From the NCBI RefSeq assembly GCF_016765655.2, contig NZ_CP086106.1, positions 4,577,001-4,641,000 on the forward strand: a stretch of DNA of 64,000 nt. Direction: 5' to 3'. Position numbers and translations under genes: made by a program. Source of the DNA: Skermanella mucosa. GTDB lineage: Bacteria; Pseudomonadota; Alphaproteobacteria; Azospirillales; Azospirillaceae. Position 1 is the first letter of the stretch, and the number at the start of each line of letters is the position of its first letter. Shown here one piece after another: positions 2,474-45,017 of this stretch. The notes under the pieces were generated by a model, which saw nothing but the letters and a program-made list of their open reading frames with translations, did not search any database and was not told where the DNA came from.

Positions 2474-2700
2474 TCGAACCTCTCCACTTGGCTCATTGCG
2501 CGGAAGCCGGGCCTGGGATTCCCGTGCGGGGAATCGTCGGCGGGGTCACGTGATGAAACTGTGAACGGTTTAACGGACGGCCAGTGCCACCCGGCTCTTC
2601 GATTCGCCCTCGGCGATTCGCACTGAAGTTTTGTTTCTCGCGACAGTTTTCATGTTGCGCCGCCGAAGAAGAATGCTGCATCGCCGAGGAAACATCGCAA

Positions 2701-2753
2701 TAAGTTTGCTAAAACTTAGTTTCATTCGCCTTTTAGTACGAACTAATGTGCCG
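2701..2753. promoter_or_regulatory. Cluster of inverted repeats upstream of xoxF (candidate operators)
   Basis: An AT-rich island in otherwise GC-rich DNA. It holds a perfect 7-4-7 inverted repeat, TAAGTTT-gcta-AAACTTA, at 2701-2718. Overlapping it is AAACT-T-AGTTT, and slightly downstream is TTAGT-acga-ACTAA at about 2733-2746. The shared element is TTAGT. Dyads of this kind are typical binding sites for dimeric regulators. Location 240-290 bases ahead of the xoxF start suits an activator or repressor site. The regulator is not identified and no two-component system lies next to this cluster. Confidence 0.4.
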
Positions 2754-2850
2754 ACAACCCATCAAAAGATCTTACCCTAGAGCGCTAGTTGCACGCTGTT
2801 TCAACGCTTTAGGGTCAGTTCGCCTGAAGCCTTCTAAAGTCTTATTGTCG

Positions 2851-2943
2851 GCCTCCGAGAGAGGCGTTACGGTGATCTTCTAAAAATCCGCCCATTACCA
2901 CGGAGGCGGATAAACGGTCGGCGGGGCAATGCCGACCGATCAC
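2851..2943 (+). promoter_or_regulatory. Structured xoxF leader, possible three-way-junction RNA
   Basis: Three stems can be drawn in the leader ahead of xoxF. P1 pairs 2872-2877 (GTGATC) with 2938-2943 (GATCAC). P2 pairs 2886-2892 (ATCCGCC) with 2905-2911 (GGCGGAT). P3 pairs 2916-2922 with 2931-2937 (GGTCGGC/GCCGACC). P2 and P3 sit inside P1, which makes a three-way junction. Loop bases 2894-2899 can pair with 2925-2930 with one mismatch, a possible kissing interaction. A small hairpin GCCTC-cgaga-GAGGC (2851-2865) precedes the fold. I do not recognise it as a known riboswitch class. Transcription of this stretch is inferred, not shown. Confidence 0.4.
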
Positions 2944-2987
2944 AAAGTCGGTTGCGTCAGAGACAACGAACTCGGGAGGAGACGAAT

Positions 2988-4799
2988 ATGCGGCGGATGA
3001 AAATCCTGCTGACCACGGTTGCCCTAATCACCGCGGGAACGGCATACGCCAACGACGAAGTGATGAAGCTGCAGAAGGACCCGAACAACTGGGCGATGCA
3101 GCTCGGCGACTATTCCGGTAAACGCTACAGCCCGCTCGACCAGATCAATACCCAGAACGTCAAGAACCTGCGGGTCGACTGGAGCTTCTCGACCGGCGTC
3201 CTGCGCGGCCACGAAGGCGGCCCGCTGGTCATCGGCGACGTCATGTACGTCCACACCCCCTTCCCCAACATCGTCTTTGCCCTCTCCATCCCCGAGAAGG
3301 GCAAGATCCTGTGGAAGTACGAGCCGCGCCAGGATCCCAACGTGATCCCGGTGATGTGCTGCGACACGGTCAACCGCGGCGTGACCTATGCCGACGGCAA
3401 GATCTTCCTGGCCCAGGCCGACAACACGCTGGTGGCCCTCGATGCCAAGACCGGCGAGGAAGTCTGGAAGGTCAAGAACGGTGACCACACCAAGGGCGAG
3501 ACCCTCACCGCCAACCCCGTGGTCGTCAAGGACAAGATCTTCGTCGGCATCTCCGGCGGCGAGTTCGGCGTCCGCGGCCACCTGACCGCCTACAACATCA
3601 AGGACGGCAAGCAGGTCTGGCGGGCCTACTCGACCGGTCCCGACGCCGACGTCAAGATCGACCCGCAGAAGACCACCATGCTCGGCAAGCCGATCGGCGA
3701 CCGCGACCTGGGCGTGTCGACCTGGAACGGCGACGAGTGGAAGATCGGCGGCGGCACCACCTGGGGCTGGTACACCTACGATCCCGAGCTGAACCTCATA
3801 TATTATGGGACCGGCAACCCGGGCACCTGGAACCCGGCCCAGCGCGCCAAGGACGGCAAGCGGGAAGGCAGCGACAACAAGTGGTCGATGTCGATCTTCG
3901 CCCGCGACGCGGACACCGGCGAAGTCAAGTGGGTGTTCCAGAAGACCCCGTTCGACGAGTGGGACTATGACGGTGTCAACGAGAACATCCTCGCGGACAT
4001 CACCGTCAAGGGCAAGCCCGTCAAGGCTCTGGTCAACTTCGACCGCAACGGTTTCGTCTACACGCTCGACCGCGTGACCGGCGAACTGCTCGTCGCCGAG
4101 AAGTACGACCCGACCGTCAACTGGGCGACCCACGTCGACATGAAGACCGGCCGCCCGGCCGTGAACGAAAAGTACAGCACCTTCGCCAACGGGCCGGACA
4201 CCAACTCCGAAGGCATCTGCCCGGCGGCGCTGGGGACCAAGGACCAGCAGCCGGCGTCGTTCTCGCCGGACACCGGCCTGTTCTACGTGCCGACCAACCA
4301 CATCTGCATGGACTACGAGCCGTTCGAGGTCGCCTACAGCGCCGGCCAGCCCTACGTGGGTGCCACGCTGTCGATGTACCCGGCCCCGAACTCGCACGGC
4401 GGCATGGGCAACTTCATCGCCTATGACGCGGCCCAGGGCAAGATCGTCTGGTCGAAGCCCGAGGCGTTCGCGGTGTGGAGCGGCGCGCTGACCACCAAGG
4501 GCGGCGTCGCCTTCTACGGCACGCTCGAAGGCTACCTGGTGGCGGTCGACATGAAGGACGGCAAGGAGCTGTACCGCTTCAAGACCCCGTCCGGCATCAT
4601 CGGCAACGTCAACACCTTCGTGGCTGACGGCAAGCAGCACATCGCGGTGCTGTCGGGCATCGGCGGCTGGGCCGGCATCGGTCTGGCGGCGGGCCTGAAC
4701 GACCCGCAAGCCGGTCTGGGCGCCGTCGGCGCGCACGCCTCGCTCGGCCAGTACACCAACCTGGGCGGCGTGCTGACCGTCTTCACGCTGCCGGACTGA
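2988..4799 (+). CDS. xoxF: XoxF lanthanide-dependent PQQ methanol dehydrogenase
   Basis: A periplasmic quinoprotein that oxidises methanol to formaldehyde or formate and passes electrons to XoxG; 603 residues. A signal peptide ends near TAYA (residues 18-21). The eight-bladed propeller W-motifs are visible throughout (for example [13 protein letters not shown]). The vicinal disulfide is CC at 124-125. Likely metal ligands are Glu192, Asn277 and the catalytic Asp326. Asp328, two residues on, gives the D-Y-D signature that marks lanthanide enzymes (calcium-type MxaF has a small residue there). The start at 2988 follows GGGAGGA; a frame from 2952 lacks this. No mxaI lies nearby, as expected for the Xox type. 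Confidence 0.95.
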
Positions 4800-4835: not shown

Positions 4836-4871
4836 CCGGTGTTTCCGTTCCGCGAGGGGCGGAAACACCGG
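4836..4871 (+). terminator. Hairpin between xoxF and xoxG (terminator or mRNA processing stem)
   Basis: A perfect 12-bp stem, CCGGTGTTTCCG (4836-4847) with CGGAAACACCGG (4860-4871), and a 12-base loop, followed by ctcgtttc. It stands between the xoxF stop and the xoxG start. The T-tract is short, so partial termination or 3'-end protection of the xoxF message is more likely than complete termination. Confidence 0.7.
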
Positions 4872-5405: not shown

Positions 5406-6221
5406 ATGCTGGCACGAATCTCGATGCTGGTCGCGGCCGCCCTGGTGGCGGCCGGCACGGCCTCGGCCGTCGAACTGCCGAAGCGCGACGCGCTTCGGGT
5501 CTGCGCCGACCCCAACCTCCTGCCCTTCTCCAACGACAAGCTGGAAGGGTTCGAGAACAAGATCGCCTCGATGATCGGCGAGGAACTGGGCGTTCCCGTC
5601 GTCTATACCTGGTGGCCCCAGACCATCGGCTTCGTCCGCAACACGCTCCGCGCGCGCAAGTGCGACATCGTCATGGGCGCGGCCTCGGGCGAGGGGCTGA
5701 TGCAGAACACCAACCCCTATTACCGCTCGGTCTACACCCTGGTGTACCGGGAGAATTCCGGGGCGAAGATCACGGCGATGAACGATCCGGCGCTGCGCGA
5801 CATGCGCATGGGCGTGGTCGCCCAGACGCCGGGCGCCACGCTCGCCACCATGAACCGGATCAACAACCTGGAGCCCTACCAGCTCGACGTCGATACCAGG
5901 GTCGACAACCCGGCGCGCCGGGCGGTCGAGGACGTGTCGTCCGGCAAGATCGACGCGACGGTGCTCTGGGGTCCGATCGCGGGTTACTTCGCGGCGCAGC
6001 AGCCGACCAAGCTGACGGTCGTGCCCCTGGTCGGCGAACGCGGGACCCGCGTGGAGTTTCCGATCACCATGGGCATCCGCATCGAAGAGCCGGAGTGGAA
6101 GCACTGGCTGAACGACTTCATCCAGCGGCGCCAGTCCGACATCGACGCCGTGCTGGCCCAGTACAACGTCCCTCTGCTGACAGCGAGCGGCCAGCTCCAG
6201 TCCGCCGCCGTCGCCCGGTGA
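5406..6221 (+). CDS. xoxJ: XoxJ periplasmic binding-protein-like partner of XoxF
   Basis: 271 residues with a signal peptide ending near TASA. The mature N-terminus (VELPKRDALRVCADPNLLPF) and the segment FENKIASMIGEELGVPVVY match the family of quinoprotein dehydrogenase-associated solute-binding proteins. These resemble ABC-transporter substrate-binding proteins but have no transporter genes alongside. In methylotrophs XoxJ is proposed to help activate or mature XoxF through its large cavity. I start at the ATG at 5406, preceded by ACGGAGA. The longer frame from 5349 lies inside the tandem repeat. The gene ends in GTGA, overlapping the start of the next gene, so the two are translationally coupled. 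Confidence 0.88.
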   Translation: MLARISMLVAAALVAAGTASAVELPKRDALRVCADPNLLPFSNDKLEGFENKIASMIGEELGVPVVYTWWPQTIGFVRNTLRARKCDIVMGAASGEGLMQNTNPYYRSVYTLVYRENSGAKITAMNDPALRDMRMGVVAQTPGATLATMNRINNLEPYQLDVDTRVDNPARRAVEDVSSGKIDATVLWGPIAGYFAAQQPTKLTVVPLVGERGTRVEFPITMGIRIEEPEWKHWLNDFIQRRQSDIDAVLAQYNVPLLTASGQLQSAAVAR

Positions 6222-6766
6222 ACAGGCGAACCGTCGCCGCCGCGCTGGTCGCGGCGGCGGTGCTTTCTTCGCCGGCCATCGCGGCGGAATTCAGGATGTC
6301 GGACTACCGGGCGCCGACCCCGGACACGGTCCCCGGCGCGGCCACCGTCGGCACCGAACGGGTCCGCGAGATGGCGAACAGGGGCGAGGCCGTGCTGATC
6401 GACGTCTACCCCGCCCCGCCCCGGCCGGCCACGCTTCCCCCCGGCGCCGTTTGGATGCCCAAGGCGCGCCGGACCATCCCCGGCGCGGTCTGGCTTCCCA
6501 ATGTCGGGTACGGCGCCCTGCCGGACGGCATGGACCGGCATTTCCGGGACAGTCTGGAGCGCCTGACCCGGGGCGACCGCGGCCGGCCGATCGTCTTCTT
6601 CTGCGAACCGGATTGCTGGATGTCCTGGAACGCGGCGCTGCGCGCCGTCGGATACGGCTACCATGCCGTCCACTACTACCCCGAGGGGGCCGGTGGCTGG
6701 ACCGCGGCGGGGTTGCCGCTCGAACCGGCCCAGCCGACCCGGCCCGAACTCGATGAGGCCCCGTAG
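6218..6766 (+). CDS. Quinoprotein-associated rhodanese-like protein (PQQ 'CXXCW' family)
   Basis: 182 residues from a GTG start that overlaps the xoxJ stop by four bases. A signal peptide (RTVAAALVAAAVLSSPAIAA) is followed by a domain of rhodanese fold. The hallmark cysteine pair is in FFCEPDCWMSWNAALRA, matching the Cys-Cys-Trp-Met-Ser-Trp-Asn motif of the family found in PQQ-dependent alcohol oxidation clusters. It probably acts in the periplasm in thiol or sulfur chemistry linked to dehydrogenase or cytochrome maturation; the exact role is unknown. The start depends on coupling, because I see no strong ribosome binding site. Confidence 0.82.
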   Translation: MNRRTVAAALVAAAVLSSPAIAAEFRMSDYRAPTPDTVPGAATVGTERVREMANRGEAVLIDVYPAPPRPATLPPGAVWMPKARRTIPGAVWLPNVGYGALPDGMDRHFRDSLERLTRGDRGRPIVFFCEPDCWMSWNAALRAVGYGYHAVHYYPEGAGGWTAAGLPLEPAQPTRPELDEAP

Positions 6767-8931: not shown

Positions 8932-9795
8932 TCAACTCGCCGGCTGCGGCGTGACCTTCCAGTCCCCGGTATAGACCTGGTCCTTGCTGTCGGTCACCCG
9001 GACGTCCAGCTCTCCCGGCCCCTTGGGCTGGAACGTGAAGTGGAGGCTCGGGTCCTCGCTCAGCGAGATGTCGGTCTCCACGTCCAACACGGGCTTGCCG
9101 TCATAGCTGACCTTGATCGACCGGATGAAATAGGGCGGCACGTAGGTGCGCGAGATCTGGTCGAACTGCATGCCGCTGTGGTTCGGGTGGCTGACCAGGA
9201 GCTGGGCCGTCACCGGCGCGTCCGCCGGGACCGACTGCGGCAGGTTCAACTTCATCCTGCCCAGCCGGGCCAGCGCCTGCTGCGGGTCCTTCATGGCCGG
9301 AGCCGAGCAGCCCCCCGCCGCCTTGACATAGCGCTCCGCGCTGAGCAGGCGGCCGTCGCTGGTCTCGGCCACGGCATGGATCAGGGTATATTCGTTGACC
9401 CGGACCCGCGTGCTGATCTCCAGCGCCTTGCGTTCGTCGAACAGGTGGAACTTGCCGGCCAGCGGCACGGGGTTGCCGTCGATCAGCAGGGTCAGCGTCC
9501 GGATCGACCAGCCGGCGTCCTCCGGGATCGTGGCCTTCATGGTGACCGGGACGAGCGCCGCGTCCTGCGCCCGGTACGGTGCGTCCAGCGTCAGGAAGGC
9601 GCTGCCGTCCTCGATCTCGCGATCGGGAAAATAGACCTCCCGGACGTTCTCCCAGCGGGCGTAGTCGTCAGGCTTGGCGTCGCTCGGCCGGGTTTCGGCC
9701 GACGCCGCGTCTCCGGCCGGCAGCAGGGCGGCAAGCAGCAGGGCGGCCAGGAACGATCCCAGCAGGGTTGCCGGACGCGAAGCTCGTGCGGACAT
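8932..9795 (-). CDS. Quinoprotein dehydrogenase-associated SoxYZ-like carrier
   Basis: 287 residues with GGAGGA upstream and a signal peptide (LLAALLPAGDAASA). The first half is SoxY-like and ends in the swinging-arm type motif KAAGGCSAPA, where SoxY has GGCGG. The second half is SoxZ-like (HPNHSGMQFDQ, then beta-sandwich strands). This fused SoxYZ-like protein is known from PQQ-dehydrogenase gene neighbourhoods, where it is presumed to carry an unidentified adduct on its cysteine as part of a 'quinoprotein relay'. It lies just downstream of, and in the same direction as, the metallo-hydrolase gene, so they form a two-gene operon. Confidence 0.85.
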   Translation of the reverse strand: MSARASRPATLLGSFLAALLLAALLPAGDAASAETRPSDAKPDDYARWENVREVYFPDREIEDGSAFLTLDAPYRAQDAALVPVTMKATIPEDAGWSIRTLTLLIDGNPVPLAGKFHLFDERKALEISTRVRVNEYTLIHAVAETSDGRLLSAERYVKAAGGCSAPAMKDPQQALARLGRMKLNLPQSVPADAPVTAQLLVSHPNHSGMQFDQISRTYVPPYFIRSIKVSYDGKPVLDVETDISLSEDPSLHFTFQPKGPGELDVRVTDSKDQVYTGDWKVTPQPAS

Positions 9796-36762: not shown

Positions 36763-36999
36763 CGCCCTGCCTGTCGAAGTGATTGGAAGCGCTGGGGAGC
36801 CGGTCGCCTCGGCCGCCCGCTATCGGGATGAACCCGGCCGGAAAGGGACTCGTTCCTTCGCAGGTGCGAAATCATGGCGAAGCAGCGGAAGTGCCCTCGA
36901 TTGCGGCAGATGCCACTGCCTAATTTTTCGGCATAGTTACAAAAAAAGGATATAAGAAAGTTGGAGCATTAAGCAGTTGGCAAGCGCGCCGATTTGTGC

Positions 37000-37079
37000 A
37001 AAAAAAAGGCCGCCCCGAAAGGCGGCCTGAGTCTAGGGAGGAAACGCCCAAAGAGGCGTATGCAGCATCACTGCTGCGA
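37000..37079 (-). ncRNA. mmgR: MmgR (alpha-r8)-like small RNA
   Basis: Read on the minus strand, this has a hairpin GCAGCA-gtga-TGCTGC, a second hairpin ACGCC-tctttg-GGCGT, an unpaired TTTCCTCCCT (37035-37044), and a textbook terminator GGCCGCC-tttcgg-GGCGGCC followed by eight T (37027 down to 37000). The 10-mer UUUCCUCCCU between a short stem and a strong terminator is, as I recall, the hallmark of MmgR, the alphaproteobacterial sRNA that limits PHB storage in Sinorhizobium. A possible promoter is TTGATC-N16-TAACTT just upstream. The 5' end is inferred. Total about 80 bases, close to the known size. Confidence 0.68.
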
Positions 37080-44238: not shown

Positions 44239-44562
44239 TCACCGAATGTCGAACCGCCACCACACGCTGGGCGGCGGCGGACGGTAATAGCGCGGCGGAG
44301 CCTGCCAGTGGCGGCGGCCCCCGCCGTCATGACGCGAGAAGCGATCGCGGCGCGCCGCCCGGCGCTCGCCGATGATCTCGCCGAGTTGGACGCAGGCGCG
44401 GCGGTTGCCGAAGTCGCAGGCCCGTTTCAGGCCGTGGGACTGGTAGGGATTGGAATGCAGTTGCCTGCCCCAGCGGTCCCCGTGCCGGTCCCAATCGGCC
44501 TGGGCCGGGAGAGCGGTCAGCAGAAGCAGGGACGCTGATGCGAGCAGGAGCCGGATACCCAT
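44239..44562 (-). CDS. Small secreted basic protein
   Basis: 107 residues with AAGGTGA before the ATG at 44562 and a signal peptide (LLLASASLLLLTALPAQA). The mature domain has two cysteines in KRACDFGNRRACVQLGEIIG, a pattern seen in Sel1-like or short disulfide-bonded helices, then an Arg/His/Pro-rich tail (RYYRPPPPSVWWRFDIR). Probably periplasmic. No family recognised. Confidence 0.55.
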   Translation of the reverse strand: MGIRLLLASASLLLLTALPAQADWDRHGDRWGRQLHSNPYQSHGLKRACDFGNRRACVQLGEIIGERRAARRDRFSRHDGGGRRHWQAPPRYYRPPPPSVWWRFDIR

Positions 44563-44603
44563 GGGGTCACCTTGCAGGGATGTGTGCAAGGGTCAACAGC
44601 GGC

Positions 44604-44623
44604 CCCCGGGGGGTTATTCCCCC
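44604..44623 (-). terminator. Hairpin after the secreted protein gene at 44673
   Basis: CCGGGGG (44604-44610) and CCCCCGG (44617-44623) form a 7-bp stem. Wider G/C blocks (GCCCCCGGG with CCCGGGGGC) can add an outer stem. It is 49 bases past the stop of the minus-strand gene. Confidence 0.5.
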
Positions 44624-44672
44624 GGACCCGGGGGCGGCCGGAATGCCGCTCCCCGGGCCCGGATGGCCGCGG

Positions 44673-45017
44673 TCAGAGACCGGTCGCGGCGGTCCGGGTC
44701 GCGGAGTCGACGCGCAGCTTGTCGCCGTCGCGGGTCAGCACGAGACGGGCGGCCGGCGAGCCTTCGTCACCGGCCAGTTCGATCACGGCCGACTGGCCGG
44801 CGGCCAGGTCGTGGGTGAAACGCAGGGCCGGCGAGCGGTCATCGGCGGCGACGGTGGTGACGACTTCGAACTTGTCGGAGGAATTGGTGAAATAGACCAC
44901 GGCGGAACCGTCGCGCAGGGAGACGGTACGGGCCTGGTCGGCGCTCACGACGTCGGCGGCCGAAGCGACCGAGGGAACCAGGAGGGCCAGGGCGGCAGCG
45001 GCGATGATGCGACGCAT
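44673..45017 (-). CDS. Small secreted beta-rich protein
   Basis: 114 residues, AAAGGA upstream, signal peptide MRRIIAAAALALLVPSVASA. The mature part alternates strands (ARTVSLRDGSAVVYFTNSSD, FEVVTTVAADDRSPALRF, AVIELAGDEGSPAARLVLTR), suggesting a small beta-sandwich in the periplasm. No cysteines. No family recognised. Confidence 0.55.
   Translation of the reverse strand: MRRIIAAAALALLVPSVASAADVVSADQARTVSLRDGSAVVYFTNSSDKFEVVTTVAADDRSPALRFTHDLAAGQSAVIELAGDEGSPAARLVLTRDGDKLRVDSATRTAATGL

Follow-up and report, generated by a model that had tools for sequence, protein, structure and literature searches.

In Escherichia coli, a 5' stem-loop in the leader of ompA stabilises the mRNA. Control of the lanthanide switch is described in the accessible text of PMC5018670, among other papers, as exercised by proteins, and MxbDM and MxaY are named there as protein regulators. 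A further paper, PMC12530212, treats both xoxF and riboswitches, and its riboswitches sit at other genes. The literature search found no riboswitch of xoxF and no paper on xoxF of Skermanella.

The window analysed here, a 64,000-nucleotide stretch of the Skermanella mucosa genome, carries the xoxF gene listed in Table 1. The stretch upstream had been read as the leader of xoxF, and this assignment held: the gene falls in the PQQ alcohol-dehydrogenase family, its product contains WDYDGVNE, with the DYD motif that we take to be the lanthanide signature of XoxF, and it is followed 3' by a methanol-metabolism cytochrome gene and then by a MoxJ-like binding-protein gene. In the preferred reading, which was drawn from leader sequences and is given a probability of about 0.5, xoxF of Skermanella has a 5' leader with two tandem hairpins (P2 and P3) that were selected as RNA and would tune mRNA stability or ribosome access. 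A selected RNA structure, if true, would add a post-initiation layer to the expression of a lanthanide enzyme in Skermanella; the present case is a modest one, that of a genus-level structured leader of putative effect.

Table 1. Features of the xoxF leader and gene (positions are those of the window)
Feature	Position	Strand	Description
Invariant 20-mer GCCTTCTAAAGTCTTATTGT	2829..2848	+	Identical in 5/5 Skermanella; probable promoter -10/start region
P1, 5' strand GTGATC	2872..2877	+	Partner GATCAC 2938..2943 (P1 3' strand), 6 bp
Invariant TCTTCTAAAAA	2876..2886	+	Holds second CTTCTAAA copy and CTTCT
P2 hairpin	2886..2911	+	ATCCGCC 2886-2892 / GGCGGAT 2905-2911, 7 bp; conserved core 2887-2892/2905-2910
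P2-loop segment ATTACC	2894..2899	+	Proposed kissing partner GGCAAT, P3 loop 2925-2930; 5/6 in window
P3 hairpin	2915..2938	+	CGGTCGGC 2915-2922 / GCCGACCG 2931-2938; loop variable, 8-11 nt
Small hairpin GTTG/CAAC	2951..2967	+	Just 5' of ribosome-binding site; all 4 pairs in four species, 3 of the 4 in G002
Shine-Dalgarno GGGAGGAG of xoxF	2974..2981	+	Kept in 5/5 Skermanella species
xoxF	2988..4799	+	Start ATG 2988, 603 aa; PQQ-dependent methanol/ethanol dehydrogenase family (TIGR03075, 741 bits)

The three stems claimed by the sequence-only reading (P1, P2 and P3) were all present in the window, and the extra copies of GTCGG were found at 2847, 2917 and 2947. P3 has 8 bp alone and 7 bp once P1 claims its last G. 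A perfect nested 6+7+7 junction did not arise in any of 5000 dinucleotide-shuffled versions of the 140-base region, and the same rule fired at one further place in the 64-kb window, so the arrangement is rare and not unique. That sole other match, at 44541-44730, was obtained on both strands. Single-sequence folding showed the leader to be modestly special (z -1.87, equalled by 7 of 200 shuffles). Placing P1 on top of P2 and P3 in the window gained about 4 kcal/mol (-31.6 vs -27.2 kcal/mol), while the minimum-energy fold of 2841-2955 paired CCTCCG (2852-2857) with CGGAGG (2901-2906), displacing P1 and P2.

Leaders were compared among five closely related Skermanella species (the window, G002, G001, G004 and G003); the G004 leader was the same as that of S. 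stibiiresistens SB22. P2 and P3 together were paired in 68 of 70 pair cells (97.1%), with 29/30 cells paired in the P2 core and 39/40 in P3. One P2 pair goes from C-G through U-G to U-A among the species, and one P3 pair was altered on both sides (G-C/G-U to U-G). The tolerated changes in the two stems were mostly C to U opposite G, which keep pairing on the + strand only. The small GTTG/CAAC hairpin was almost invariant and is thus uninformative on pairing.

When partner columns were slid, pairing in P2 and P3 fell to 22-55%. A column-dealing control gave 52/500, which is not decisive, as expected with five rows. The consensus fold of 2877-2940 on a plain MAFFT alignment had a z of -5.7 on the + strand, where 0 of 400 column shuffles were as good, compared with -1.9 on the reverse strand, since the majority of the changes turn a C that faces G into U. 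A substitution model based on the leader's own spectrum predicted 12.7 broken cells if changes were placed region-wide and 9.9 if they were placed in the stems only, against 2 observed. The deficit had p <= 5e-5 on a star tree, a simulation that counts shared changes repeatedly, so that the combined p overstates independence; p by species ranged from 0.005 to 0.13. Among 288 syntenic neighbourhood tiles, those of P2 and P3 ranked 2nd and 3rd. Pair-keeping changes, compensatory or wobble, that suit the transcribed strand, as in a structured mRNA leader, were found in P2 and P3 only, in a five-species comparison of limited power. The earlier claim of RNA-level structure in the xoxF leader is therefore upheld for these two stems, kept on the + strand in five species, and P2 and P3 were probably selected as RNA structure in the form of a tandem hairpin pair.

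P1 behaved differently. It was paired at 6/6 positions in three close species, where its sequence was identical, and being unchanged there it says nothing on selection; in both G004 and G003 it kept 3/6 pairs without compensation. Loop-loop pairing between P2 and P3, which had been noted as five of six positions and stood in the window, fell to 2/6 in the same two species. Two alternative folds, a 2851-2865 hairpin and the GCCTCCG-CGGAGGC pairing, were rejected, each being kept in three species only. The sequence-only reading had proposed a three-way junction and had named stems broken without compensation in homologous leaders as grounds for abandoning it. Of the compensatory changes that it had asked for in relatives, P2 and P3 supplied two pairs altered on both sides, while P1, the closing stem, was broken uncompensated in 2 of 4 relatives. 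Because P1 and the loop-loop contact fail in G004 and G003, the conserved object is the tandem hairpin pair and not the three-way junction, which would at most characterise a single sub-clade. A five-species comparison thus suffices to part the better supported stems (P2 and P3) from attractive unsupported ones (P1 and the loop-loop contact).

The decay of P1 and of the loop contact also bears on the view that the hairpins are functionless, GC-rich products of ancestral chance, kept mainly by recent common descent beside a truly functional promoter (~2802-2848). The element is restricted to the genus, the xoxF leaders of Azospirillum and others being unrelated, single-sequence folding of the relatives was unremarkable (z -1.4, -1.0 and -0.25), and the strongest conservation sits upstream of P2 and P3, all of which fit such an origin. 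Nevertheless, the broken pairs are too few for the number of substitutions and the + strand asymmetry is strong, and we consider chance hairpins unlikely, while giving them some weight.

The strongest DNA conservation was located 5' of the hairpins, in the invariant 20-mer and in the TCTTCTAAAAA block. Within the 20-mer, TAAAGT (2835-2840) stands 17 nt from a weak -35-like GGGTCA (2812-2817), and the 20-mer probably forms the -10/start region of a promoter with the message starting near 2847; a sigma-70 scan detected no promoter consensus. A search with 19 of its 20 bases, allowing up to 3 mismatches, gave a single occurrence in the genome. The 64-kb window holds two copies of CTTCTAAA, where 0.12 would be expected, the first at 2831-2838, and the closely spaced pair occurred once in the window's own genome. 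The TCTTCTAAAAA block can be read either as a regulator repeat or as a single-stranded leader segment, and the duplicated CTTCTAAA may itself be a regulator site.

Such blocks would also suit a DNA-level element: a regulator of xoxF would bind P2 or P3 as a palindromic operator, and the true RNA start would lie downstream. Perfect inverted repeats of 7-8 bp adjoin the two conserved AT-rich blocks, and the duplicated CTTCTAAA resembles a protein-binding repeat. However, half-site spacing in P3 was 8, 8, 8, 8 and 11 across the five species; the loop grew from 8 nt in four species to 11 nt in G003 with the stem intact, which fits an RNA and not a two-half-site operator. The changes, moreover, mostly pair as G-U in RNA and on one strand only. 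The P3 palindrome GGTCGGC-GCCGACC was rejected as a regulon site, its copies elsewhere in the genome having no common spacing. An operator is accordingly considered quite unlikely. One hairpin, GGTCGGCCTTCGGCCGAGGCCGACC, was present in about six copies in the genome in either orientation (L150 and others), possibly as a dispersed repeat or terminator.

On the minus strand, P2 with its A-run (a stem, then TTTTTAG) could be taken for the intrinsic terminator of a leftward transcript, and a terminator-like site was indeed found at 2904-2887. One such site compares with 0.6 expected in shuffles, though, the stem does not survive the substitutions when read on the minus strand, and no known gene reads leftward into the site, which makes this reading the most improbable of those weighed. 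The longer P3 loop of G003 also speaks against it. On the + strand, no intrinsic terminator or attenuator (G+C-rich stem, then a T run) was detected in 2560-3000.

The element had not been recognised as a described riboswitch, and the Rfam search (Rfam 15) agreed, with no family match and none in the leader up to E 5. A covariance model run over 82 family and 289 class genomes gave nothing convincing beyond the five Skermanella leaders, and in a DNA search of the 82 family genomes only these five were real. Class-level matches, whose per-genome E-values began at 0.001 across the 289 genomes, are at chance level, and the weak family matches that were examined, several within coding sequence, resemble chance matches. 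Those at L130, L131 and L134 were rejected as representing one conserved stretch, inside a long open frame in L130. The model gave no convincing match at 79 other xoxF loci, and the element was without a match among PLSDB plasmids. Each genome had one copy, and none was found before other genes or outside Skermanella in the genomes searched. Over 80 xoxF leaders the mean folding z was -0.63, slightly better than shuffles, so there is no general structured xoxF leader. The P2/P3 leader is probably genus-specific and previously undescribed.

Sensing of a metal, PQQ or substrate, suggested earlier, was not supported. A riboswitch whose aptamer was the three-way junction and whose ligand was a lanthanide, PQQ or an alcohol would be suitably placed before the gene of a lanthanide enzyme; P1 forms in three species, and two unpaired stretches of the would-be junction were conserved in the five leaders, namely TTCTAAAAA and the A-rich segment that links P2 to P3. 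The hairpin loops vary, however, leaving no apparent ligand pocket, the closing stem is broken in half of the relatives (2/4), the element is single-copy and was not found before other genes or in the other genera searched, and published lanthanide-switch control, in the accessible text of PMC5018670, is by proteins. The riboswitch is thus very improbable.

CTTCT in the TCTTCTAAAAA block is complementary to AGGAG of the Shine-Dalgarno. With a transcript from 2857, the predicted pairing probability was 0.42-0.67 in the window, G001 and G004 and low in G002 and G003, and it was about zero in most species for transcripts from 2829 or 2845; the values span 0 to 0.67 by species and start. The two segments are invariant, and the pairing is thus without covariation support. 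A cis-acting RNA switch, answering a lanthanide, PQQ or a small RNA, in which CTTCT masks the Shine-Dalgarno or pairs elsewhere, is likewise very improbable.

Under the preferred reading of a tandem hairpin leader, transcription would start near 2847 and give a leader of about 140 nt, in which P2 and P3 would follow each other as stable stem-loops, downstream of the promoter and upstream of the ribosome-binding site. Their job would be general post-initiation control of a presumably strongly expressed xoxF: they may slow decay from the 5' end, keep the ribosome-binding site accessible or tunable, or both. Across the folded hairpins, CTTCT 5' of P2 might pair with AGGAG and lower translation.

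Further observations were made around the xox genes. A 16-bp hairpin at 4836-4871 (CCGGTGTTTCCGTTCC-GCGA-GGGGCGGAAACACCGG) lies just past the xoxF stop codon and before the cytochrome gene; it was retained in G002 and G001, where substitutions preserve pairing, and a long hairpin of differing sequence stands within about 40 bases past the stop in most Azospirillaceae xoxF genes examined. It is perhaps an mRNA-stabilising element that separates the expression of xoxF from that of xoxG. The top consensus-fold tile of the neighbourhood (6196-6265; z -4.9 on the + strand and -3.9 on the reverse) covers the end of the MoxJ-like gene and just beyond, and contains a terminator-like stem of 13 bp (6232-6262). 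A gene in which SoxY and SoxZ domains are fused (8932-9795, minus strand) is situated near the xox cluster, and a suhB/mmgR small RNA was identified by Rfam at 36993-37064 on the minus strand (59.8 bits). Contig C231 of G003 (L121) carries the start of a second xoxF-like gene, with 62% identity over 34 residues, and its leader was without the hairpin element.

Compared with known systems, the leader has something in common with each of three. The xoxF leaders of the Azospirillum brasilense and lipoferum clades also carry hairpins 5' of the Shine-Dalgarno, and those of the brasilense clade gave a moderate consensus-fold signal (+ strand z -3.7, reverse strand z -3.0); nevertheless, no sequence or structure homology was detectable, and the covariance model had no match there. 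With the cis-regulatory riboswitch families of Rfam it shares the leader position before a gene for a cofactor-dependent enzyme, but it differs from them in its variable loops, its unconserved closing stem and its restriction to a single genus. Leaders of the ompA type have no sequence relation to that of Skermanella, yet the two are alike in design: in both, stable hairpins lie between the message start, a predicted one in Skermanella, and the ribosome-binding site, and the sequence drifts while the pairing stays.
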